Assembly (NCBI RefSeq): GCF_021353265.1
Contig: NZ_JAJTWU010000005.1
Location: 186,001-250,000 of the forward strand
Length of the DNA stretch: 64,000 nucleotides
Reading direction: 5' to 3'
From: Pelomonas cellulosilytica
GTDB taxonomy: Bacteria; Pseudomonadota; Gammaproteobacteria; Burkholderiales; Burkholderiaceae_C
Shown piece by piece: positions 38,207-60,096 of this stretch. How positions within the stretch are numbered: the stretch's first letter is position 1; each line of letters begins with the position of its first letter. Under the pieces are notes generated by a model. It had not been told where the DNA came from. It was given only the letters and a program-made list of their open reading frames with translations, and did no database searches. A program made the position numbers and the translations under genes.

Positions 38207-38252
38207 TGTCGAAAACCATTCAGTTCTGAACTTTGTTCATTCAAGTCTGAAC
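38207..38252 (+). repeat. Left end of the Tn7-like element with two TnsB-type sites
   Basis: The terminus is TGTCGAAAACC, then site L1 CATTCAGTTCTGAAC (38217-38231) and site L2 CATTCAAGTCTGAAC (38238-38252). Their starts are 21 bp apart, two helical turns, in the same orientation. L1 pairs with the right-end site R1 at 13-14 of 15 positions. The layout is typical of Tn7-family ends. Confidence 0.85.
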
Positions 38253-38462: not shown

Positions 38463-38548
38463 TTTGCGGGAAAAGATGCACGGGGGAGGAGGGGTATTGC
38501 CCGTCTCAGATGCTTGGTGAAGTCAGCCCAAGGCTGATCTGAGTCGTT
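38463..38548 (+). repeat. 86-bp direct repeat, copy 1 (inside left end)
   Basis: Begins tttgcgggaaaagatgcacg and is about 94% identical to 58223-58308. It contains a hairpin TCAGCC-CAA-GGCTGA (38523-38537) inside a longer CTCAGAT / ATCTGAG pairing. In copy 2 the one change in the inner stem (C to T) keeps a G-U pair. The surrounding 38253-38882 has no convincing gene: short open frames there (for example 38349-38537) run into the repeat and look accidental. Its role is unknown; see the finding on the transposon boundary. Confidence 0.8.
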
Positions 38549-38883
38549 CGAGGTTCGGAACGCGAGCGGCAGCTCACGCCAGAACCGCCCGCTCGGGTCC
38601 ACATCGACTTACCGGCGGCTTCCCTATCCAAGCCGATCGCCCGACAGTCGTGCCCGTCTTCTACCTATTTGAGCGGCCGCTTCTGCTGTTTTCGACCGGC
38701 GCTGCGGACCCTGATCAGTCCTCGACTACAAACGCGCCGGCGCCGTAAAGCAGTTGCCCATTCTTGAAGTTCAACAGCGACGTCTAAGGGCTGCCGCTTT
38801 ATTTACCAACTCACAGGCTGGTATGTTCTCCCATACTGACTTGATCGTGCTTAACTCCGCAGAAGCGGCGAGGCGTCAACCAC

Positions 38884-40815
38884 CTAGTATCTCAGTGAAA
38901 GTTCCTCTAGCGCAGCCCTATCGGAGACGGTTCCGATTGCAAGTGCGGCAGCGTAGAGCGATTCTGCATACAATATTTCCAGAAACTTTTTCCGCCGAGA
39001 CTCAGGTGCCTCGCGTAGGTATGTCTCTACCCATTTTGCATGAGCGCCCGTCAAATTCTTCGCGAAGATATGCGCTCTGCGAGTTACGCTAGGCAGAGAC
39101 GAGGCCAAAAGAACTGCCCGCTTGAGATCATCTGTTAGGCGTTGAATGATTGATCGGTGGGTGGTGTCGTATTGGCGGTCGACTTTGGCTATTCTTGATA
39201 TATTTGGATTAGAGTCATCTGCCCAAGCTCCCCAAACCTCAGATGCGGCCACCTCTTCCGATTGGCTGAGCGCAAAGAGAATTCTCTTCATATTTGGCTC
39301 GGATGCCAAAGCGGCTGATATCTCGCCTCGGATGAGAAGGAGTATGTAATCGGCCGATGTAACGGAGCCTGCAGCCAGAAGTATAATCTCACGCCACTGT
39401 CGATTGCAGATGTTCGCAAAGCTGAGTTCGTGACGCAGGGTTTTCTCATTTGTGCTGTCGATTAAGTACTGCGCCACAAAGTACTCGTGGATGGTCAAGT
39501 GGGAGAAGGCATAGTAGTCGCTGGTTTCGTGAACGACTAACCCATGAGCTGCCTCAAGATTGCGGAGAACCTCGTTCGCTTCCAGGCCGTCGTCTATTTC
39601 CCGTCGGGGAAGAGATTTGAGGTACTGCGCAATCACCGTGCATGCAGTCCCACCGCTAAAGATGAAGTGTCCTTGCTTGAAGAGCGTGTACGCCACATAT
39701 GCGAGCATCTGCTCCTTTCGTGAAGACGTGAGCTTGCGATACGGATTGTCTCGCTCGATACCTCGAGACACGCTCCACCGACGAAGCAGCGCCTCAACCG
39801 CCTCTTTGTAAAGATCGCCTCGTCGCAAGGGAAATTCCCGAGTTTCGTCATATCCGATGCAGAGAAGAGCAAGCAATAGTGGCGTGCTTGCAAGGTCACG
39901 AAGTCCTCCATTGTCAGGTAGCGCCCAAGCGTCCAAGAACGAGCGCAGTGCGGCGGGGTCATCGGAATACCATCGCTTGACAAATGAAAGCTGTTGTTGC
40001 GGAGAGAAATCTGCGATCTGAGCGACCGCAAACTTTTCGAAAGTGAAAAGTTCTGCTCCGACTCGGCAAGTCAAAATTACCTGCAGCTTTGGGTATCCTG
40101 AGGCAATCTTAAGTATTTCACCAATCAATGTTCGACGGATTCCATCCCTCTCTGTAACTTCATCAAGACCGTCAAGTAGCAACACGGCTCGCCCAGCATC
40201 CATAAGATGATCGAGGAACTCTTCTGTATTTGGAAGCTTCGCAATTTCGAACTGTTGCGCAATATGTCGCCAAAGGTTAATTTCGCTTGAATCCGCAACA
40301 TTCTCTGATATGTCCTTGAGCGCCACGTAGATTGGGGTGGAACGCTTGTTACTGGCGATCGAACGAAGTACAAGATGGCGCAGCAGTGTTGTCTTACCTG
40401 CGCCAGGCTTCCCCGTCAAATAAATGCGCTTCTCGCGCAAGATGGCCTCGGCGGGGAGTCGCTGTTCTTCGTCGGCTTGGCGCTTTTGTCTCAGCGCTGT
40501 CGCATCTAACGCGGAAGGGTTGCGGCGCTTTTGCTCTAACGGAGAGTCGTAGATATACACGTCGGTAAATATCTCGCTGAGGCGAATCTCCTTTGGATGC
40601 CCCAACAGTCTTGTTGTGGATACTCGTGCATAGAGAGCGGAGAGGTAAGCTTCGGCGTTTGTCTTCCAGACTACCGAAGCCCATTTCGACTCTGCATACT
40701 TTTCAAGTTTCTTTTTTAGGCGCTCGGGCACGAAGTCCCATGCAGTTTTGGCAGCTTCGCGGATGACAGAAATGTCTTCCGGATTCAAGCTTCCAAGGTC
40801 CGGAAATCCAATCAT
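38884..40815 (-). CDS. Bacterial NACHT NTPase, probable anti-phage protein
   Basis: The 643-residue STAND protein has a short helical N-terminal region of about 125 residues. The NACHT module has Walker A GKPGAGKTT (135-143), Walker B LLLDGLDEV (212-220), LTCRVG sensor, and the winged-helix tail FSHLTIHEYFVAQYL (about 437-451) typical of bacterial NACHT proteins. An alpha-helical C-terminal region of about 190 residues probably senses the trigger. Bacterial NACHT proteins of this layout defend against phages. No nuclease or TIR effector is fused, so the N-terminal region is the likely effector. An AGGGAG ribosome-binding site precedes the ATG. The gene is clearly more AT-rich than the core genome, so it was recently acquired. 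Confidence 0.88.
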   Translation of the reverse strand: MIGFPDLGSLNPEDISVIREAAKTAWDFVPERLKKKLEKYAESKWASVVWKTNAEAYLSALYARVSTTRLLGHPKEIRLSEIFTDVYIYDSPLEQKRRNPSALDATALRQKRQADEEQRLPAEAILREKRIYLTGKPGAGKTTLLRHLVLRSIASNKRSTPIYVALKDISENVADSSEINLWRHIAQQFEIAKLPNTEEFLDHLMDAGRAVLLLDGLDEVTERDGIRRTLIGEILKIASGYPKLQVILTCRVGAELFTFEKFAVAQIADFSPQQQLSFVKRWYSDDPAALRSFLDAWALPDNGGLRDLASTPLLLALLCIGYDETREFPLRRGDLYKEAVEALLRRWSVSRGIERDNPYRKLTSSRKEQMLAYVAYTLFKQGHFIFSGGTACTVIAQYLKSLPRREIDDGLEANEVLRNLEAAHGLVVHETSDYYAFSHLTIHEYFVAQYLIDSTNEKTLRHELSFANICNRQWREIILLAAGSVTSADYILLLIRGEISAALASEPNMKRILFALSQSEEVAASEVWGAWADDSNPNISRIAKVDRQYDTTHRSIIQRLTDDLKRAVLLASSLPSVTRRAHIFAKNLTGAHAKWVETYLREAPESRRKKFLEILYAESLYAAALAIGTVSDRAALEELSLRY

Positions 40816-41544: not shown

Positions 41545-43293
41545 ATGTCCCAACTCAAACAGCTGAAGGCCGCAACGACCCTCTCTGACGTAGCCAGGCT
41601 CCTCGAAGTCAAGCCGGGCATGCTGTCCTTTGTTCTGTACAAGAAGCCAAAGGCAGCTCTGTACTCCAAGTTCGATATCCCGAAGCGACACGGTGGCACG
41701 AGAGAGATCTGGGCGCCAGACAAGGACCTGAAGCTCGTTCAGCACCGCCTTGCTAACCTGCTTCAGAACTGCGTTGAGGAGATCAACAGCTCGCGCGGTC
41801 ACGTCGAGGATGGCAAGCGCCATGGCGTCGCGCACGGGTTCAAGCGCAAGCACACGATCATGACTAACGCGCGTGTGCATGTGACGCGCAGGTACGTCTT
41901 CAACGTGGATTTGCATGACTTCTTCGGCACGATCAACTTCGGCCGGGTGCGCGGCTTCTTTCTGAAAGACAAGAACTTCGCGCTTCACGAGAAGGTGGCA
42001 ACCGTGATCGCACAGATCGCATGCCATGAAAACAAGCTTCCGCAGGGTAGCCCCTGCTCGCCGGTCATCTCGAACCTGATCGGCCACGTGATGGACATCA
42101 TGCTGGTCCGACTGGCCTCAGCAACGGGCTGCAGCTATTCGCGCTACGCCGACGACCTGACGTTCAGCTCGAACAAGAGTAAGTTCTCGTCCCGCGTCGC
42201 AAGGCAGGATGACGCAGACAAGGACCTCTGGCTACCGGGTCAAGGACTCAAGCGCCTGGTCGCCAAGGCCGGCTTCAGCTTCAACGACAAGAAGACCCGG
42301 ATGCAGTATCGGGACTCGCGGCAGGACGTGACGGGCCTGGTTGTGAACAGGAAGGTGAACGTCCCCGCAACCTATCGCTACACCGTCCGCGCAATGGTTG
42401 ACCATGCCCTGAAGACGGGCGCGTTCGAACGCATCTTCAAGAAGCTAGATGCGGCTGGCGTCGAAACGACCTTCAAGCAGCCCGGCACTAACCGCCAACT
42501 CATCGGCATGTTGTCGTACATCGATCAGGTCGACCTCTACAACCGCAAGCTCCGAGAAGATAACGGCCTCGAACCGCACGACACCTCGGGGCGAACCGAA
42601 CAGTTCCGCCGGTTCCTGTACTTCGATGCGTTTCACGCGATCGGATCGCCGGTCATCGTTTGTGAAGGCCCGACGGACAACATCTATCTCAGACACGCGA
42701 TTAAGCGATTGGCGCCGAAGTACCCAATGCTCGCCGCCGGAACGCCGCCAAAGCTGCTCCTGAGGCTGTTCAAGTATGGGCAGCGCCGGACCAGCGAGAT
42801 CACCCAACTCACGGGAGGGGTGGGTGGGCTTTGCCACTTAATGAAGCACTATCACTCGGACTTCATCAATAAGATCAAGGCGTCGGCTCCGAAGTACCCC
42901 GTCATCGTTCTTGTCGACAACGACGCAGGCGCGAAGGACATCTACGGCGCGATCTCTGGCATCACCAAGAAGCCGCGCCCGACCGGTAGAGAGCAGTTCA
43001 TCCACGTCGTCGGAAACATGTACGTGGTGCCGACGCCCTTGGGTGCCGGCGGCGCCAAGACAGCGATCGAAGACTTCTTCGATGCGAAAACTCTCGCGGA
43101 GACGCTCGGCACGAAGACCTTTTCGCGAGCGCCGAAATTCGACGACACCAAGCACTTCGGCAAGGCGGCTTTTGCGCGCGAGATCGTCGATAAGAAGGCC
43201 GACTCGATTGACTTCAGCGGGTTCTCGGCGATCCTGGACGGCGTGGTAGCGGTAGTGGCTGACTACGCAAAGCGCCATCCGCCGGTGCCGTAG
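41545..43293 (+). CDS. Retron reverse transcriptase fused to TOPRIM domain (Ec67/Eco2-like)
   Basis: The 582-residue protein is close to Ec67 RT in length and layout. In the RT domain, Asp122 lies in NVDLHDFFGTI, LPQGSPCSPVISN at about 165-177 and the catalytic YADD at 201-204. The retron-type AHGF segment (96-99) and VTG motif (261-263) are also present. The C-terminal TOPRIM has Glu373 in VIVCEGPTDN and the DxD pair Asp457/Asp459 in VIVLVDNDAG. In such retrons the msDNA-RT complex holds the TOPRIM effector in check until phage infection releases it, causing abortive infection. The gene begins 24 bp after the a2 arm; the ribosome-binding site is weak. Confidence 0.93.
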   Translation: MSQLKQLKAATTLSDVARLLEVKPGMLSFVLYKKPKAALYSKFDIPKRHGGTREIWAPDKDLKLVQHRLANLLQNCVEEINSSRGHVEDGKRHGVAHGFKRKHTIMTNARVHVTRRYVFNVDLHDFFGTINFGRVRGFFLKDKNFALHEKVATVIAQIACHENKLPQGSPCSPVISNLIGHVMDIMLVRLASATGCSYSRYADDLTFSSNKSKFSSRVARQDDADKDLWLPGQGLKRLVAKAGFSFNDKKTRMQYRDSRQDVTGLVVNRKVNVPATYRYTVRAMVDHALKTGAFERIFKKLDAAGVETTFKQPGTNRQLIGMLSYIDQVDLYNRKLREDNGLEPHDTSGRTEQFRRFLYFDAFHAIGSPVIVCEGPTDNIYLRHAIKRLAPKYPMLAAGTPPKLLLRLFKYGQRRTSEITQLTGGVGGLCHLMKHYHSDFINKIKASAPKYPVIVLVDNDAGAKDIYGAISGITKKPRPTGREQFIHVVGNMYVVPTPLGAGGAKTAIEDFFDAKTLAETLGTKTFSRAPKFDDTKHFGKAAFAREIVDKKADSIDFSGFSAILDGVVAVVADYAKRHPPVP

Positions 43294-43426
43294 CACGCCA
43301 TCCCGTGACCGGGAGATCGTGCCTGTCTGGACAGAGGCCGCCGGGGCATGCTTCGGCGAGCGATCTGCTGGCGAGAACGAGGCACATTGATAGCTTCGTG
43401 GCAACTGCTCGAACTGTGTCGACCAT

Positions 43427-46400
43427 CTACTTCGGCAGCGAGAGGTTGATCGCCCGGATAGCTACTTTCGCTCTATCCACGACGGGGACACGTTCAACCA
43501 GCATCGCCTCCATGGTTCGAGCGCTGGTTGGCCGATCCCCCTCAGGAGATGAGCGCGGTTTAAAGTCGAACCAGAGTACTAGATAGATCCCATGGCCATC
43601 CGCAGTTGGATCGTTCGAATATAGCTTTTGAAGCTGATCGCGCCATGCCAGCCAGAGACTGGCGTTGTCTTCTCTCTTGATTTCGATAGGCACCGCGAGC
43701 TGTCGACCAGAGCCCGAATACTCCACTCGAAGGTCTGATCGCTTCTCTGCAGCTGCTCGTCGCTCAGGCACAACATGAACGTTCAAGGGTCTGAAGCGCT
43801 CCCGCAATTGCTCCAGCAGTAGATCGCGGCAGTCGTTCTCGACTTTCGGCGTGGCTTCGGTTTCTTTCGTGCTATTCCAGTAGAGCCGGAGTCCAAAAGT
43901 GTCTGCTCCTCGGAGCTTCTTCTCAAGATCGCCAAGATGGTCAAGGGTCAGCGCAAGAAGGTCGGCCTGATTTGCAGGTGGACCACCAGCAATCGTCAAT
44001 GCTGCGGCCTCCGGTGTTGGATGCGCGTAGTAGGCCTCGCGCGCTACGTCCTGTTGGGAAAGCGCACTGAAATTCAGGCGAATTGCCCATGGCTCGAGTT
44101 GCGGGAGCTCTGCGAGCCGCTGGAGTTCGATGGCGGCTGACCGTTGAGGATCTGCGGCCAGCATCGTAACGAGTGCCCGCACGGTGTCGCCACGCTCATC
44201 GGCAGCTGAAACCCAATGGGCGCCTGTCGGCCGCTCTGGCCTTGTGATTGGCGCAAGGGCCTCAATGAGTCGAGATAGTGTTTTTGGAGATACACGGCGC
44301 AGGGATCGACCAACGCTGCTTTGCTGGTGGAGGGCGTTCCCTAGGGCAGCCAAGCGCTTCTGGTTCTTGCCAACAAATTCGGTCAACTGCTGCAGGGCAC
44401 TATCGCGGTACGGCAAATCTGCCGCTAGCCAGCAAAGGCGCTGCGCAGCATCGATGGACGGGTTGTCGAGCCTCCGTCGAACGATGGAGGCAGCAAGTGC
44501 ATCATCGAGAAGATGAAGGCCACTAAGCAAGTGGCTGTTTAGCTCCCGGCGAGATTCCTCTGAACTGCGCTGGGGAAAGCTCAGGAGAAGCTCCGGCAAT
44601 ACCATGCGCGCGAGTTCCGCCTGCTTTGGCTCCGATGTCAACGCCCACAGTCCTGACACGTGGAGGGGCCCCTTGCGCCTCAGGGCACGAATCGCATGGC
44701 GAATAAGCAGCGGCGCAACGATGGACGGGCGGGCCTCCGCGGCGCGAGAGTACCAAGCTGGCGTCTCGGTACCGTCGGTGAGCCAACTCGCGATTAAGGT
44801 GGATAAAAGCTTATCGCTCCAGCCATCGACCACCGCGACGTCCCGCTCACTGGCCCGCCGTGCGGCAAGAAGCAATGCCGGTCGGATCAAGTGATACCTG
44901 CCTTTGGCGTTCAGCTCAAGAATATCATCTGCGCTGGGAAGGTCGGCGCGAACAAAAACGTTGTTCAGTCCGGCAAGTGCCGCCCTGCTTGTCTCGACGT
45001 CAGTGACTAAGAAGTCTTGAGCCAGTTCCTCCGGGGTCTCTCCTTGTATGTCATAGAACCGCTTTCCACACGCCAGCGCGAACTGATGCATCACATGAGA
45101 TGGGGCACTGCCATCTAGGATCGCCGGTACGTGTGGGGCAAGGGCTATCCGTCGTGCCTCTCGCTTCGCGCGAGTTTCCGCTTCGTGCCTTCTTAGGCGA
45201 CGATGCTCCTCGCCCTGCCAATTGCCTTCAAGTGCGCAACTGAAGGCTTGTTCCAACCATTCGACAGCACTTGGGTGACGGTCGGTATTGGCAGCGACCC
45301 AACCTTCAATCTCTTCAATGGAGGGGATGTCGAATCCCGCCGGGGTATCTACGACGGCGCGAGCAGCTTGGAGAAAGCAGTACTCCGCCAGTTGCTGGTC
45401 TGTCTTGGTCGCTGCATGCTGTAGCAGCCAGTAGAACCAGTCTCGGGGAAGGGTGGCACGCAAGAGCCGTTGTTCACCTTCCCAGAAGTAGCGCCGCCCG
45501 CTTTGAGGATCGGTTCGAACAGCGTCCCATGCTAGCGCGACGATGGCCTTCATTCGCCCAGGCCGGCCAGTTAGCCAACTTGAAATTCGGGCTCCTCCGG
45601 CATCTGCATCCAGCTTGGCAAAGCCGTGTTTGTCCATGCCGAGGTCCAACCACGCAGACAACGTCGCGTCGTCGGCTTGATCGCCTGCGTTCTCCAATGC
45701 CCCCGCTAGGATGCCAGTGCGAAGACGATTCCATTCGCCCTCAAACTCGGTACGCGACTGCGGCTTGAGTTGAAGCCAAGCATTGACCAGCTTCGGGAAA
45801 TCGTGCGGGCGCGACCGATTGACGAGTCCGCTGTACCAAAATCTGGGCATCGTCGTGTTCCGTGCGATGTCACCGGGCTTCGGCCAGAATCTGAAAACCT
45901 CGTCCGGTCCCAACTGTTCGGGGTACATGCCGTCGAGGAGCTCGCTTGATAGTCGGGCATCCAGGTCCTTGAGGCTGCCATCGCGAAACTGCTCAAGCCA
46001 GGATCGTGCCTTGTTGACTTCAAGGCTACCGCCCTGCATCCAGACCTTCAGAGCTAGGATTCGGTTGCCGAACCAAACGGCGTCGTCTTCAACCCACGCC
46101 TCCAGCAGCGACCGGAGTTCCTGCATGGGTTCTCCGTTAATGAGTGCGTCAAAGACGCAGCCCATGAACGCTTGGTTCGAGCGATCTGGTGATCGGTCTG
46201 CCAGCACCTCTTCGAGCACATCCGCCATGTCTGCGGAGGCCAGAGGTGCAAATGGATGACTGGCCCAGTGCTGGTTGCGAAACCAAGGGTTCCGCTCGGC
46301 CTGGGCGCGGAGCGCCGCGAGAAGGGCCCGCTTGTCGTCGACGGAAAAGGCTGCGACGTCCCCGTTCAACACAATGCTTAGCGGATCCAGTTCAACTAGG

Positions 46401-47506
46401 GCCAGACGATCGCGAGCGTCGTGAACGGTCAGCCATCCGAGCAGGCCTCGAAGAGGCTCAACCACGCCCCCATCAGTACCCTGCATCAGTGCCAAGATCC
46501 GGCCCAAGGGCAGTCCTTTGCTCAGTCGCTCTGCGATAGATCTTGCCGCCAAAAACTCAGCAATGCTTCTATGTCTCGCAAACGACTCGCCATCGATCGT
46601 TGTGAAGACCTTGCTTGCAAGTGCGCGTTGCGGCGCAACTAGCTCGAATACCTTAGGAAGTGAATGCCAGGCGATGGAGGTGACGCTGCCCTCCAAAGAC
46701 TTCGTAAGAGACGACTTGCCGCTAAAAAGCAGAAGCGCGCAAAGCAATCCAGCATCGTCAAGGATTTGGTCCACGTCGCCTGGCTGCAGGGGCAAGACCT
46801 CCAAATGGGCAGGAGACTGCTCGGTAACCAACGTGCGGCAAGCCAGTCCGTAGATGTCGCAGCGGGTAGCTGGCCACCCTTGGTTGTCAGCTACCGCGCG
46901 GATTGTCAGATCGAGCAGCAGTGGGTTGCCGAACAAGGGCGCGAGCCCCAAGGCAGCACCTTGTTCCAGAAAGGCATCAGCATCAGGAACTTCGCCGGGG
47001 CGACCCACCAAGATTTGTCGCTGCTCGTCTTGGGAAAGAGGCTCCAGATGCAATTCATCGACCTCCCCATTGGGGGCAACTTGGCGTAGAGCGTCGAGAT
47101 CGGTCTGAGATCGCCAGTCATGCTCTCTGCAGGAAAGTCTGAAGCGCGGCCGCCCAAGTTCCTTGAGCTTGGCACGAATCGCATCCAACGGAATGCGCCC
47201 ATCGGCAGCACCGGCTCGCATCTCGTCAAGGCCGTCTATGAAGAGCGTCTTCCCGTGATCGCTGCGCTCAATCCCGAGCGAGATGAAGTCCCTTGCGCTG
47301 ATGTATACGCAGCCTTCGCCCAGACCCTCTTCTCGGAAGGACGCACTCTTTCCAGACCCGGGATCGCCAAGGAGAACATACGCTGCTATGCCACGCCAAG
47401 CCTCAAGGGGACGAGTTTCTGGCCTGCCTTCGGCCGACAAGCTTGTAGCGCGGCGCGGTATGTACAGCCGAACCTTGGTGGTGGCGGACCGAGTCACCGT
47501 GTCCAC
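43427..47506 (-). CDS. Giant STAND/NACHT-like NTPase with C-terminal PD-(D/E)xK nuclease domain
   Basis: This 1359-residue protein has an NTPase module right at the N terminus: Walker A LLGDPGSGKS (45-54), Walker B LFIDGLDEM (88-96), RLSCREHDW arginine/sensor segment and a FARHRSIAEFLAARS tail, as in NACHT proteins. About 800 residues of helical, repeat-like sequence follow, probably the sensor. The last 140 residues look like a PD-(D/E)xK nuclease: Glu1223 in KVENDCRD, Asp1258 in KRSDLRVEY, and Glu1275-x-Lys1277 in VPIEIKRE. The effector is therefore C-terminal, unlike the N-terminal nucleases of the Avs proteins I know. Its start overlaps the DUF4143 gene by 13 nt. Function inferred: nucleic-acid-degrading defence. 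I do not recognise the family by name. Confidence 0.78.
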   Translation of the reverse strand: MDTVTRSATTKVRLYIPRRATSLSAEGRPETRPLEAWRGIAAYVLLGDPGSGKSASFREEGLGEGCVYISARDFISLGIERSDHGKTLFIDGLDEMRAGAADGRIPLDAIRAKLKELGRPRFRLSCREHDWRSQTDLDALRQVAPNGEVDELHLEPLSQDEQRQILVGRPGEVPDADAFLEQGAALGLAPLFGNPLLLDLTIRAVADNQGWPATRCDIYGLACRTLVTEQSPAHLEVLPLQPGDVDQILDDAGLLCALLLFSGKSSLTKSLEGSVTSIAWHSLPKVFELVAPQRALASKVFTTIDGESFARHRSIAEFLAARSIAERLSKGLPLGRILALMQGTDGGVVEPLRGLLGWLTVHDARDRLALVELDPLSIVLNGDVAAFSVDDKRALLAALRAQAERNPWFRNQHWASHPFAPLASADMADVLEEVLADRSPDRSNQAFMGCVFDALINGEPMQELRSLLEAWVEDDAVWFGNRILALKVWMQGGSLEVNKARSWLEQFRDGSLKDLDARLSSELLDGMYPEQLGPDEVFRFWPKPGDIARNTTMPRFWYSGLVNRSRPHDFPKLVNAWLQLKPQSRTEFEGEWNRLRTGILAGALENAGDQADDATLSAWLDLGMDKHGFAKLDADAGGARISSWLTGRPGRMKAIVALAWDAVRTDPQSGRRYFWEGEQRLLRATLPRDWFYWLLQHAATKTDQQLAEYCFLQAARAVVDTPAGFDIPSIEEIEGWVAANTDRHPSAVEWLEQAFSCALEGNWQGEEHRRLRRHEAETRAKREARRIALAPHVPAILDGSAPSHVMHQFALACGKRFYDIQGETPEELAQDFLVTDVETSRAALAGLNNVFVRADLPSADDILELNAKGRYHLIRPALLLAARRASERDVAVVDGWSDKLLSTLIASWLTDGTETPAWYSRAAEARPSIVAPLLIRHAIRALRRKGPLHVSGLWALTSEPKQAELARMVLPELLLSFPQRSSEESRRELNSHLLSGLHLLDDALAASIVRRRLDNPSIDAAQRLCWLAADLPYRDSALQQLTEFVGKNQKRLAALGNALHQQSSVGRSLRRVSPKTLSRLIEALAPITRPERPTGAHWVSAADERGDTVRALVTMLAADPQRSAAIELQRLAELPQLEPWAIRLNFSALSQQDVAREAYYAHPTPEAAALTIAGGPPANQADLLALTLDHLGDLEKKLRGADTFGLRLYWNSTKETEATPKVENDCRDLLLEQLRERFRPLNVHVVPERRAAAEKRSDLRVEYSGSGRQLAVPIEIKREDNASLWLAWRDQLQKLYSNDPTADGHGIYLVLWFDFKPRSSPEGDRPTSARTMEAMLVERVPVVDRAKVAIRAINLSLPK

Positions 47507-48762
47507 TCCTCCGCCGGCCGCCGGAGGAATTCGCCGACGGGCATGGCCTCGCTGCCTACCAGAAGCTTCCGTGTCTCGGGATGCCGCCGAATGAACTCGG
47601 TTATGCCGCGGTGGTGCGATTCAACGCTGTTCGATTTGACTTCGATGGCTGCGAGGATGCCGCGTCGCTCCAAGATGAAATCAACCTCGTCGTCACCATC
47701 TCTCCAGTAGTGAACACGGGTGTCTCCGTCGGCCGTGTTGATTAGGTGAGCGCCCACGGCACTTTCGACCAATCGCCCCCAATGACTGCGGTCAGCGCGC
47801 GCTTCCGCAAATCCGTAGTTCCCCATGGCGCCCATTAGCGCCGTGTTGTGCACCATGAACTTGGGCGGTGACCTGCGTTGCCGTATCGCCTGTCCAGAGT
47901 ACTTCTGCAGCCCGGAAAGCAAGCCTGCATAGGAGAGCAGGTTGAGCTGGTGCGTCAATGTCTGAGTGTGCGCACCACCTAGCCGCCCGCCTGCCTTGTC
48001 GAGCGCCAGGATTTGTCCCGAGTAAGAGCAGCCAAGGCTGAAGAGTTCACGGAGCAATGCGGGCTTATCGACCCGGAACATCTCGAAAACGTCTTTCTCG
48101 ATGTTCGGCAGGATCAGTGATTCGCGCACATAGCTGCGCCAACGAGCCTCATCGCCAAGAAGGCTTGCGCTGCCCGGGAAGCCGCCGAAGTACAAGTACT
48201 GCTCCAGCGTCAGGCCAAACGCCTCGTTCATCTCCTCGAACGACCAATGGCCCAGCCGCAGGATTTCATAGCGCCCGAGCAAGCTCTCCGTCAGGCCGCT
48301 CTGTATAAGCAATGGAGCAGAGCCGAGGAGTACAACGTGCATCGGAATGCCAAGTGAACGGGCTCTATCCCAGAGCCCTTTGACAACGCCAGACCACTGT
48401 GGAACTCGTTGCACCTCATCGATGACCAGTACATAGGGCATCGTCTTCGCAGCGGGGTGATCAGAGTGGTGCCAGGCCTTGGCTGCCGTTTCGGCATGTC
48501 CCCACTGCAAGATCAACCACTCTTCATCGATGCGGGTGGGCTGAATCCAGTCGAGGCCGGATGAGGCTGCAAGGGGCGATGGCTCAGCGTTGAGTAGTGT
48601 GCGCGCTGAAGGTGGCCGTTCAGACCGGTTCACGACCTGGTCGACAAGCGTCGTCTTTCCGACTTGCCGTGGTCCGGCAACGATCTGGATTCGCGCAGGC
48701 GCCTCCGCCAGACGCCGCGCCAATGTCGGTCCGAGATCTCGGAGAAAGGGCCCCTTGCGCAT
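47494..48762 (-). CDS. DUF4143-type AAA ATPase, upstream partner of the STAND nuclease
   Basis: The 422-residue AAA_14/DUF4143 protein has Walker A IVAGPRQVGKTTLVDQVV, Walker B YVLVIDEVQRVPQW, the sensor VLLGSAPLL, and a C-terminal DUF4143 domain ending in DDEVDFILERRGILAAIEVKSN, which is a PD-(D/E)xK-like motif. The family is widespread and mostly uncharacterised. The ATG at 48762 is chosen because homologues begin shortly before the RRLAE...GPRQVGKTTL block; an open frame continues upstream through a GTG at 48792. It overlaps the 1359-aa gene by 13 nt, so the two are one translational unit. This coupling suggests a two-part system. Confidence 0.82.
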   Translation of the reverse strand: MRKGPFLRDLGPTLARRLAEAPARIQIVAGPRQVGKTTLVDQVVNRSERPPSARTLLNAEPSPLAASSGLDWIQPTRIDEEWLILQWGHAETAAKAWHHSDHPAAKTMPYVLVIDEVQRVPQWSGVVKGLWDRARSLGIPMHVVLLGSAPLLIQSGLTESLLGRYEILRLGHWSFEEMNEAFGLTLEQYLYFGGFPGSASLLGDEARWRSYVRESLILPNIEKDVFEMFRVDKPALLRELFSLGCSYSGQILALDKAGGRLGGAHTQTLTHQLNLLSYAGLLSGLQKYSGQAIRQRRSPPKFMVHNTALMGAMGNYGFAEARADRSHWGRLVESAVGAHLINTADGDTRVHYWRDGDDEVDFILERRGILAAIEVKSNSVESHHRGITEFIRRHPETRKLLVGSEAMPVGEFLRRPAEEWTR

Positions 48763-48773
48763 GGCTTGATGAT

Positions 48774-48793
48774 AGTGAGTAAATTTACTCACT
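48774..48793. promoter_or_regulatory. 20-bp perfect palindrome before the DUF4143 operon
   Basis: AGTGAGTAAATTTACTCACT is a perfect 20-bp palindrome whose edge is 11 bp upstream of the ATG at 48762. It is a strong candidate operator controlling the DUF4143/STAND operon. It contains the sequence TAAATTTA, which could be part of the -10 region. No matching regulator gene adjoins it, so autoregulation or a host regulator is possible. Confidence 0.65.
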
Positions 48794-48959
48794 GCAATCA
48801 CCCGCGTTGCGACGGGCGGCACCGAGCCCTTCGTTCCCGGGACGGGAGCGTGTTGCGTGCAGGTTTTGTGGGTCGACCGCACTGGTAGGACCATCCGATG
48901 GACCTAAATTGGTCGTAGCTTGATCGTCTCGAAACAACCCAGCGCGAGCTTCCGCATGC

Positions 48960-49300
48960 CTCCGATAAGGGCCTGTCAAATCGTCGAGCTGATTGAGCGC
49001 GTTCGTTGCAAAGTTGCCGGTCGGCTTTGGCAATTGGCTGCATGACGACGGCGCGAGACGCCACCTGATCGCCATGGCACACGTCCCGAACCCTGAGTGC
49101 GACGAGGTTGCATCCCCGCAGCTTGCTGTCGATGCCAAAGTTGAAGAGAGCGAGGTCTCGTACCCGACTCTCCATCTGGAGCCTCACGCACAGCGCCCAA
49201 ATTGTCCTTGAGCTTGGCCGGTGGGAAGAAACGCCGGTGTCGGGGACTGGTTTCTGAGCTGCTGGGGCGACGGTCGCTACGACGGCCGCCGGAGGTCGTA
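48960..49300 (-). pseudogene. Decayed tyrosine-recombinase (integrase) remnant
   Basis: Minus-strand reading of 49205-49038 gives IWALCVRLQMESRVRDLALFNFG then SKLRGC-LVALRVRDVCHGDQVASRAVVMQ. This is a well-known integrase segment, whose intact homologues continue with KTQRPVQFEIT... . Here the upstream part (FFPPAKLK) and the downstream part are in other frames, and the catalytic Arg/His/Tyr region is missing. It is thus a frameshifted, truncated fossil. The rest of 48794-49535 shows no other supported gene. Confidence 0.72.
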
Positions 49301-49314
49301 GGGACCAAGACAGC

Positions 49315-49536
49315 TCAAATATTGATGAACTCGGTGGCGAGCGCCTGGCCGGGCTCAGCAACGCCGACCTTCGCCCCGCTATTAGCGGCCCGCTTGGCGG
49401 CGACGTAGAGCAGGATGGCTTTGCGGAGTGCGGCGGTCCTCGCTGCCTCATCCGTGCCGACGATCTCGTCAAATTCGCGACTCAGGCCCGCACCCATCGT
49501 GATGGTGCAGCGGAATGTGTGTTCGTTGTCTGGCAT
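49315..49536 (-). CDS. Small RHH/antitoxin-like protein
   Basis: The 73-residue protein starts at the ATG at 49536, with GGAGCGCGAG upstream. A short beta-strand-like start (HTFRCTITMGAG) is followed by a helical segment (AARTAALRKAILLYVAAKRAANSG) and the tail KVGVAEPGQALATEFINI. This pattern resembles ribbon-helix-helix proteins with a GxxxPGQxLxTEFINI tail found on plasmids and islands. It could be a DNA-binding regulator or an antitoxin that has lost its toxin. No toxin gene is beside it. Confidence 0.6.
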   Translation of the reverse strand: MPDNEHTFRCTITMGAGLSREFDEIVGTDEAARTAALRKAILLYVAAKRAANSGAKVGVAEPGQALATEFINI

Positions 49537-58119: not shown

Positions 58120-58222
58120 GTTCAGAGTTGAATGAGCACGGAGTTCAGGACTCCCTGGGCATGGTTTGTCCAAGTGCTTGATTCGGCAGTGGGTAGTGTT
58201 CAGAACTCAATGAACTTCGACA
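58120..58222 (-). repeat. Right end of the Tn7-like element with three TnsB-type sites
   Basis: Read inward from 58222 the end is TGTCGAAGTT. Site R1 lies at 58198-58212 (GTTCAGAACTCAATG on plus), R2 at 58143-58157 (GTTCAGGACTCCCTG) and R3 at 58120-58134 (GTTCAGAGTTGAATG). All are inverted relative to the left-end sites. The unequal number and spacing between left and right ends is normal for Tn7-like elements. The stretch 57893-58119 is AT-rich and should hold the promoter of the gp16-like gene. Confidence 0.85.
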
Positions 58223-58308
58223 TTTGCGGGAAAAGATGCACGGGGGAGGAGGGGTATTGCCCGTCTCAGATGCTCGGTGAAGTCAGCTCAAGGCTGATCC
58301 GAGACGTT
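58223..58308 (+). repeat. 86-bp direct repeat, copy 2 (abutting the right end)
   Basis: About 94% identical to 38463-38548, and homology begins at the very first base after the transposon terminus. It keeps the TCAGCT-CAA-GGCTGA hairpin. In Tn7 the right end is the one facing the att site, so this may be the element's recognition sequence. The following 58309-58538 has no supported gene. Confidence 0.8.
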
Positions 58309-58538
58309 TGCAGCTCGCGGCATCAGCGACCGCTACCGCCGAAAGCCGCCAAGCGGCGTCCGCAAGCTCGGCCGGCAGCTTTGCCCCCTGCGATCTTCCG
58401 CTTGATGCTGATGTTGGTATCCGCGCAGCTCATTGACCGCCTCCCCATTCCGCGCCCACCTCAATCGAGCCCTTGCGGTAAGTCGCGCTCGCTCGCTGGG
58501 CCCGCTAGGATGACGCGACAAGTCCAAGGGAGGCAGAA

Positions 58539-59967
58539 ATGATCGGCAAGGTTCGGCTCTACGACTACCGCTGCTTTCGCCGCGAGGCGCCAGCCACGCT
58601 TGAGTTCAGCAAAGGCTTCACCTCCTTCGTCGGCCCTAACAACTCAGGCAAATCCGCGCTCATCCGGTTCCCGTACGAGATGCGCAATGTCATCGCGGGC
58701 ATTGCGGACCAGATGACGCAGGGCACTTGGACGAACCTCGCGAACCAAAAGGGGTGGAACGTAAGCCATGGGCTGTACGAGCCCGCCGAGATTCTGTGCG
58801 AGAGGAACTATCCGGAGTGCTCGATTGATTTCGAGCCAACCCTGAGTGAGGGAGAACAAGTCCTGTCGGTGGCGAAGATGCGTGTCACCTTCGACCAGAC
58901 AGCATCCTTCTATTGCGTGACCCTTTTCGATTCAAACGGCAGCGAGCTGCCTCCGTTGAACCAGGGAGCGTCTCAGACAGACAATCGGTTGACGGTTGGC
59001 AGTGCCGTGTACACCGTCGGCCCGCTACGAAAGTTCCTCCAGTTTCTGCGCGACATCCAATACGTAGGCCCGTTCCGAAACGCCATCAACGAAGGTGCTG
59101 GGACGCACTTCGATGCCTACATCGGGACGGGCTTCATCGCCCAGTGGAATCAATGGAAGACCGGCCCCAACCGGAGCCAAAACAGGGCCATTCAAGAGGT
59201 CACTGAAGACGTCAAACGGCTGATTGGGGCCGACTCACTCGAGATTTCCGCCACGGCCGACGGCAAGTCACTGCAGGTCGTTGTGGACCGACGTCCTCAC
59301 AAGCTACAAGAGCTCGGTGCCGGCTTCTCTCAGATGGTCCTCATTCTGGCCAATGCGCTCATCAAGAAGCCGTCGATGATCGTCATCGACGAGCCAGAAC
59401 TGCACCTGCATCCCAGCCTCCAAAACGAGTTCCTGACCACGCTGGCCAACTACTCGGCGCACGGCGTGATGTTCGCAACGCACTCCATTGGTCTTGCCCG
59501 CCAAGCCGCCGACCAGTGTTTCACTGTGCAGCGACAAGGCCAGGGATCAACGGTCCGTCCATATCAGCGCACGCCTCAGTTGGCGGAATTCCTTGGTTCG
59601 CTGGGCATAGCCGGGCTGCAAGAGTTGGGCTGGAACACCATCCTGCTCGTTGAGGGCGTCAACGACGTCCGTACCGCTCAGGCATTGCTTCGGCTGTACG
59701 ACAAAGACCATTGCACCGTAGTCTTGCCGTTGGGTGGCGATGCGATGGCAAACGGCAAGAGGGACGAGGAACTGAGCGAGGTGAAGCGTCTTGCCGGCAC
59801 AGACGGAAAGGTATTTGCGCTGGTAGACAGCGAACGCGAAATGGCTGGCGGCCCTGCACTAAAGGCTAGGCAGCGCTTCAGCGACAGCTGCGACATGCTG
59901 GAGATCAAGGTTTGCATTACCGAGCGTCGAGCCATCGAGAACTACCTGACGCAGCAATCACTCGATG
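58539..59967 (+). pseudogene. OLD-family ATPase/TOPRIM nuclease, 5' part (split by IS21 element)
   Basis: ATPase of the OLD family: Walker A GPNNSGKSAL, signature-like LGAGFSQMVLILANAL, Walker B SMIVIDEPELHLHPSLQ and H-loop FATHS. A C-terminal TOPRIM region follows with ILLVEGVNDVRTAQALL (Glu) and VFALVDSERE (Asp). OLD nucleases act in phage defence and plasmid/phage exclusion. The frame runs into the IS at 59968 and stops at 60023, giving a 494-residue chimera. Joining across the IS with one 9-bp duplication removed restores a 527-residue protein ending at 63684. The last 51 native residues are lost; catalytic motifs are retained, so partial activity is possible. Confidence 0.9.
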
Positions 59968-60096
59968 TGAACGGCGGTCAGGAAGCGCGCTTATTCGGCG
60001 GTGAGAGCGCGGTTTTGCCTTGAGCCCTGGGAAGGGTCAATTGCGAGTGAGGGGGGCGCGGCGTCGGCCGTGGCCGTCGTCATTCATGAGTTGACG

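Follow-up and report, generated by a model that had tools for sequence, protein, structure and literature searches.

A DUF4143 ATPase gene paired with an EruA-like NACHT gene in Pelomonas cellulosilytica: a candidate two-gene antiphage operon with a palindromic leader

What does a DUF4143 ATPase do at the head of an operon that encodes a large NACHT protein? The question is raised by two overlapping genes of Pelomonas cellulosilytica, which lie on contig NZ_JAJTWU010000005.1 in a stretch of 64,000 nucleotides (nt; positions 186,001 to 250,000 of the contig). This whole stretch is called the window, and all coordinates are positions within it. On balance, the pair is best read as a two-gene antiphage operon, in which a nuclease-armed EruA-like NACHT protein would stand under the control of a DNA-binding AAA+ partner. 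Five things have been computed: (i) the adjacency of the two genes, (ii) the single clade formed by the partners, (iii) the conservation of motifs, (iv) the predicted folds, (v) the leader element. The defence function of the pair rests on the NCBI family name of the large protein, the PADLOC listing of the small one and the cargo around them in the window.

The open reading frames (ORFs) at 43427-47506 and 47494-48894, both on the minus strand, are intact, and the latter encodes 466 amino acids (aa). The ATG at 48894 was rejected as the start of the small gene: relatives begin at the equivalent of 48762, and the start at 48762 agrees with theirs. As called, the two genes overlap by 13 nt, just as a preliminary description of this DNA had reported, and its coordinates and motif numbers hold as well. 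The true start of the large gene is more likely the GTG at 47497, in frame with the large ORF, because GGAGGAG lies 8 nt ahead of it; the overlap would then be 4 nt (GTGA). The features are:

47494-48762, minus strand: small gene, first of the pair, for a 422-aa AAA_14-DUF4143 ATPase of the PADLOC PDC-S01 family
43427-47506, minus strand: large gene, second of the pair, for a 1359-aa EruA-like NACHT protein
46427-47389, minus strand: N-terminal NACHT-type nucleoside triphosphatase (NTPase) region of the large protein, about residues 40-360, with Walker A at 47-54 and Walker B (DGLDE) at 91-95
44015-46426, minus strand: middle region of the large protein, about residues 361-1164, which would likely act as the sensor, judged from STAND proteins
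43427-43894, minus strand: C-terminal PD-(D/E)xK-like domain of the large protein, about residues 1205-1359, with E1223, D1258, E1275, K1277 and Q1291
48649-48675, minus strand: Walker A of the DUF4143 protein, G30-T38, assigned on the conservation of K36
47851-48063, minus strand: predicted winged helix of the DUF4143 protein, residues 234-304, assigned on the order of elements in the model
47557-47790, minus strand: predicted PD-(D/E)xK-like domain of the DUF4143 protein, residues 325-402, with E333, D361, E374 and K376, assigned on conservation and the model
47506-47512, minus strand: GGAGGAG, a possible ribosome-binding site for the GTG start at 47497
48774-48793, unstranded: perfect 20-nt palindrome in the leader, with its core TGAGTAAATTTACTCA at 48776-48791

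The preliminary description took the parts of the pair for undescribed, which does not stand: each matches a family already named, in the June 2026 release of NCBIfam or in PADLOC of 2023. The large protein has no match in Pfam. It aligns end to end, from residue 23 to 1356 and from model position 6 to 1318 of 1318, with the NCBIfam model NF058535.1, ‘NACHT domain-containing antiphage protein EruA’, and reaches 864.5 bits but not the equivalog cut-off of 1000 bits, which is why, on its sequence, it is called EruA-like and not filed as an EruA equivalog. The same model is matched by all 34 members of alignment A6, made up of the window protein and 33 relatives. As in EruA, NACHT-type Walker A and B motifs stand at the N terminus, in agreement with the NACHT-like NTPase first proposed: K53 of Walker A and D91, D94 and E95 of Walker B are kept in 79/79 rows that have a letter there in an 80-row alignment. 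The Pfam NACHT model gives weak matches to 3 of the 34 members of A6 and none to the window protein, so it is by these motifs and the NCBI name that the protein is called NACHT.

The C terminus of the large protein is predicted to adopt a nuclease fold. E1223, E1248, E1275, K1277 and Q1291 are found in all 79 rows of the 80-row alignment that have a letter at these positions, and D1258 is kept in 78 of those rows. The AlphaFold2 model of residues 1165-1359 (mean predicted local distance difference test score, pLDDT, 91.2) has its elements in the PD-(D/E)xK order, a helix, three strands, a helix and a strand, with D...ExK on the core fold. The motif set E1223, D1258, E1275-x-K1277 of the preliminary description is thus conserved, and the model supports its reading as PD-(D/E)xK-like. 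Among the 50 Foldseek rows listed for this model, 44 by manual count are PD-(D/E)xK nucleases or complexes holding one, including PaqCI, SwaI, MspJI, HamA, EndoMS, MUS81, FokI, Hjc and DdmD.

The small protein carries AAA_14 and DUF4143 by Pfam, and its 466-aa ORF matches the hidden Markov model of PADLOC family PDC-S01 (PDLC04791) over most of its length (E 1.3e-143; residues 52-464, model positions 4-393 of 395); no NCBIfam model matches it at E 0.1. K36, D115, E116, E333, D361, E374 and K376 are present in 50/50 paired and 12/12 unpaired relatives. Its AlphaFold2 model (mean pLDDT 91.3) has an AAA fold, and the best Foldseek matches in the PDB are ORC, ORC, Cdc6/Orc1 and Apaf-1 (ranks 1-4), with RuvB at rank 10. 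Residues 234-304 form a helix-helix-helix-strand-strand unit with the look of a winged helix. In residues 325-402 the order is alpha-beta-beta-beta-alpha-beta, and a second PD-(D/E)xK-like domain is predicted here from this order and the conserved residues, not from a fold search of its own. The winged helix, this second nuclease-like set and the conservation of the palindrome were all absent from the preliminary description.

The pair recurs in other genomes, as the preliminary description had proposed to check. A scan of genome contigs with the large protein gave 237 relatives, the best 80 of which were kept as loci; seven have too little upstream DNA and were excluded. A DUF4143 gene lies directly upstream in 49 of the 73 loci that extend 1.4 kb or more in that direction, a fraction that is inflated and not an unbiased rate, because the scan ranks, and the 80 loci were chosen, by likeness to the window protein. 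In the paired loci the DUF4143 stop falls between -37 and +20 nt from the position aligned with the first residue of the window protein. On a large-protein tree of 80 rows, built by a quick method and excluding partial or fragmented eruA genes, the pair label changes 7 times (shuffled mean 22).

The partners themselves form a single clade: the 50 paired DUF4143 proteins group apart from 12 unpaired relatives (support 100/99), and in a FastTree tree with added matches 54 paired proteins group apart from 19 others (support 100), two of which (L153 and L156) have 239 and 333 nt downstream, too little to be called unpaired. The former tree excludes unpaired DUF4143 rows below 150 bits or with at most 300 residues matched, L135-L137 included; in L135 and L136 the sequence breaks off within the gene, which makes their pairing not callable, and the two are left out of the 12. 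Both the large-protein and the small-protein tree are flagged for long branches. L006/L125 and L091, and likewise L005 and L096, are seemingly the same contigs, to judge by their matching lengths and scores, and were counted once. When the class and the phylum were searched with the small protein, 5/5 matches of at least 378 bits (the genome itself, G159, G661, G607 and G406) adjoined eruA. Among the 12 matches of 300-375 bits, ten are followed by 1.4 kb or more of DNA that lacks eruA, and for two the contig ends too soon after the gene for a call. Many Pseudomonadota carry the paired clade, as do loci from metagenome assemblies that are labelled Cytophagales, Longimicrobiales and Desulfobulbus, and a complete pair also lies on an IMG/VR viral contig (L139). 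The single clade and the adjacency of the top matches make the partnership look like one recruitment, which would have been inherited and sometimes lost.

The leader ahead of the small gene holds a perfect palindrome, AGTGAGTAAATTTACTCACT. Its core TGAGTAAATTTACTCA, with at most two mismatches, precedes the DUF4143 start in 47/50 paired loci, the window included, and in 27 of 30 loci after thinning, as against 0.017% of shuffled leaders. The distance from the start of the core to the estimated start codon is most often 18 nt; the window has 29 nt. The more open pattern TGAGT-N6-ACTCA has 41 sites in the paired loci (0.93 Mb), of which 40 fall in the leader (40/49 loci), and none in 34 unpaired eruA loci (0.67 Mb); in the 6.35-Mb host genome the window site is the only one within two mismatches. 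A 22-nt extended palindrome was found in none of the viral contigs.

The preliminary description spoke of a shared palindromic promoter region. The palindrome is borne out; the promoter is unsupported, because a scan for the sigma-70 consensus over 43250-49500 found none (1.4 expected by chance). The same interval has seven terminator-like sites (4.9 expected), and Rfam reports no RNA family at its gathering threshold in 37000-60100.

To which of the two genes does the element belong? The half-site TGAGTA/TACTCA stands ahead of 8/12 unpaired DUF4143 genes, including Bacteroides and Collinsella plasmid records, before L135 and L136, and before 9/9 phylum-search matches (three paired, four unpaired, two not callable); it precedes 2 of the 34 unpaired eruA genes. 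Half-sites before the start of an unpaired PDC-S01-type gene are often in arrays (L122, L123, L127-L130, L152, L154-L155 and L157). Since half-sites precede unpaired DUF4143 genes and rarely unpaired eruA genes, the element, found in varied hosts, goes with the DUF4143 gene and probably belongs to its protein. Together with the predicted winged helix it points to autoregulation by the DUF4143 protein.

Several observations weigh against the favoured reading. In the Foldseek search of the C-terminal domain no match is at E 0.001 or better, the template modelling scores (TM-scores) do not exceed 0.45 and the top-ranked protein is unrelated and not a nuclease; structure modelling of the large protein covered residues 1165-1359. 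The TM-scores of the small model in the PDB (0.15-0.38, query-normalised) mainly reflect its AAA+ part, and a profile comparison that aligns D361..ExK of the small protein onto D1258..ExK of the large one does so at 7% probability. The exact half-site is missing in 4/12 unpaired DUF4143 relatives, with a CTAG-type variant in its place in L132 and no half-site in L126, L133 and L134. Neighbours in 29 paired loci elsewhere are mostly non-defence. The remaining points concern the partnership: no DUF4143 gene lies upstream in 24 of the 73 loci, in 0/8 usable plasmid loci (nine fetched, 24 records matching), directly upstream in the two E. coli genomes looked at out of 28, or within about 1.4 kb upstream in L002 and L003. 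The last two hold the EruA proteins of at least 1000 bits (2 of 369 genomes of the class), 19-22% identical to the window protein. These unpaired loci mean that EruA can exist without DUF4143.

It is conceivable, if unlikely, that EruA alone is the whole defence and that DUF4143 is a separate gene, selfish or defensive in its own right, which brought an operator of its own, settled upstream and is merely co-transcribed. EruA is found without DUF4143, both unpaired Pseudomonas loci tested have a dehydratase gene (ilvD/edd-type) upstream of eruA, and DUF4143 relatives of 300-375 bits exist without eruA. This explanation has to contend with a single paired DUF4143 clade that is kept beside EruA in many Pseudomonadota and metagenome-assembled loci, at tight or overlapping spacing. 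In one further unpaired locus, L047, an IS110-type transposase gene is upstream of eruA.

About as doubtful is the idea that the palindrome acts as an mRNA hairpin, gating translation of the operon, and not as a protein-binding site. Perfect palindromes directly before the DUF4143 start reach 58 nt in L099, 44 nt in L074 and 42 nt in L060, and at several loci the 3' arm contains or adjoins the start codon. Beyond the core, about 12 positions per arm are complementary more often than in cross-locus arms, relatedness uncorrected, despite letters that differ between loci (37/48 against 0.38 at position 10, a small gain at positions 2 and 7). Six hand-picked leaders divide on this point: the folds are strong in L099 (z -14), L074 (-6.7) and L107 (-3.7) but modest in the window (-2.4), L043 (-2.5) and L042 (-1.5). 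A hairpin would also leave aside that the core letters themselves are fixed, that the same half-site occurs as direct or rearranged repeats in unpaired relatives and that a winged helix is predicted in the paired protein.

Less likely again is a toxin-antitoxin-like pair, in which the DUF4143 protein would restrain a toxic EruA nuclease until infection titrates or destroys it. The overlapping genes, with the putative autoregulator first, and the nuclease-like domain of the EruA-like protein would suit such an arrangement, but EruA without a DUF4143 partner is common, and the intact ATPase and nuclease-like motifs of the partner exceed what an antitoxin needs.

The surroundings of the pair in the window are those of a defence island, as originally described. 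A stretch of lower guanine-cytosine content at 38-60 kb holds the pair, flanked by 25-nt inverted ends (84% complementary) at 38207-38231 and 58198-58222. Between these ends lie TnsB-like, TniB-like and two TniQ-like genes, a retron gene, a NACHT protein gene and the pair. The retron gene (41545-43293) encodes an Ec67-type protein of fused reverse transcriptase and TOPRIM (NF038237, 700 bits), with no retron RNA nearby by Rfam at the gathering threshold; the 643-aa NACHT protein (38884-40815) is weakly like the NACHT region of EruA (45.9 bits). By its ends and gene content, 38207-58222 is probably a Tn7/Tn5053-like defence-carrying transposon of about 20 kb, with the pair as cargo. No target duplication is seen, the five bases outside the ends being different (gctcg and tttgc). 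A 118-nt direct repeat (85% identical) has one copy abutting the right transposon end (58223-58340) and the other inside the left part (38463-38580). At 58132-60023 a 136-aa ORF is followed by a 494-aa AAA_15/AAA_21 (OLD-like) ATPase, which lies just outside the right end.

Elsewhere the defence-island setting is not borne out as a general property of the pair. The neighbour scan took in 147 ORFs in 29 paired loci, out of 219 picked in 42 loci of at least 10 kb; these were greedy calls of 110-899 aa, and very large defence genes would escape it because ORFs of at least 900 aa were excluded. Defence models match few of the 147: at E 1e-15 there are 13 PADLOC families, of which mad3 alone has more than one member (six), the others being single matches such as NERD-UvrD, SoFic and QueC. 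The six mad3 matches are perhaps the ABC transporters, also six in Pfam. Among the 25 Pfam families listed, of 174, most are housekeeping or transport. The least likely explanation, a DNA-repair or mobile-element module that is not a defence, draws on these sparse defence neighbours and on AAA+-winged-helix folds typical of replication proteins, but it sits poorly with the antiphage family name at NCBI, with a retron and a NACHT protein beside the pair between transposon-like ends, and with EruA relatives on plasmids and the full pair on viral contig L139.

How does the pair compare with known systems? Sequence searches of solved structures returned weak P-loop or chance matches and nothing else. 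HyoA (NF058534.1) matches the window protein in part (residues 311-789, 125.6 bits, cut-off 1200) and 32/34 members of A6. Avs proteins, whose effectors are N-terminal, likewise join a STAND-type NTPase to a nuclease effector and may work alike, by analogy; in the window protein, however, Walker A already stands at residue 47, with no effector domain ahead of it, and the nuclease-like domain is C-terminal. At E 0.1 no PADLOC family, Avs included, matches the window's large protein, and Avs4 matches 1/34 members of A6 (E 0.0034). PDC-S01 has no named partner, and here it is one half of a recurrent pair. We take the ‘S’ in its name to mark a single-gene candidate.

PMC12988326 reports PDC-S01 as one of the commonest candidate defence families of prokaryotes and describes validation as still pending for most PDCs. 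The accessible part of the DefensePredictor paper (PMC13092281) does not use the terms Eru, Hyo, AAA_14 or PDC-S01. The search found no paper on antiphage EruA or on the pair, which is weak evidence of absence, as most subscription literature lay outside it. Both families already have names; what appears new against the literature searched is the pairing, the paired clade and the leader element.

Other genes also adjoin EruA relatives. Downstream of one on a Paracoccus plasmid is a divergent DUF4143 protein (L036, 9960-11216) with Pfam DUF4143 and no AAA_14, and with no Walker A in its translation by eye; this is perhaps an independent pairing. The eruA of a Citrobacter (L120) is matched in 28/5426 E. 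coli genomes, and an LA2681-type HEPN gene follows eruA both there and in the two E. coli relatives L158 (12 nt from the eruA stop) and L159 (about 0.6 kb), so that this HEPN protein is possibly another partner of EruA.

In the favoured mechanism the middle region of the large protein would sense an infection cue, the N-terminal NTPase would switch and probably oligomerise, and the C-terminal PD-(D/E)xK domain would cut nucleic acid. The small AAA+ protein, with its winged helix and its own PD-(D/E)xK-like domain, would bind the TGAGTA half-sites in its own leader and so control expression of the pair, and it may also share in sensing. We infer the DNA binding, the autoregulation and the nuclease activity, as well as the trigger and the outcome. 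A bolder version is speculative and probably goes too far: DUF4143 ATPases of the PDC-S01 type would be operator-bound guards on a palindromic, perhaps cruciform-forming leader, and an infection cue, such as broken DNA, a protein of the phage or altered nucleotides, would make the guard release or cut the leader element and so unleash the nuclease-armed NACHT protein.

A conserved pair that opens with a family-specific palindrome suggests a job for the DUF4143 ATPase. What adjoins an EruA-like protein varies: a DUF4143 gene upstream, a HEPN gene downstream at two E. coli loci, or a divergent DUF4143 gene downstream on the Paracoccus plasmid. The pairing with an antiphage-named NACHT family, together with the family-specific leader, offers a direct test of what the DUF4143 ATPase does. 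If the guard version were true, it would describe a two-layer switch and show how a very common defence candidate works.

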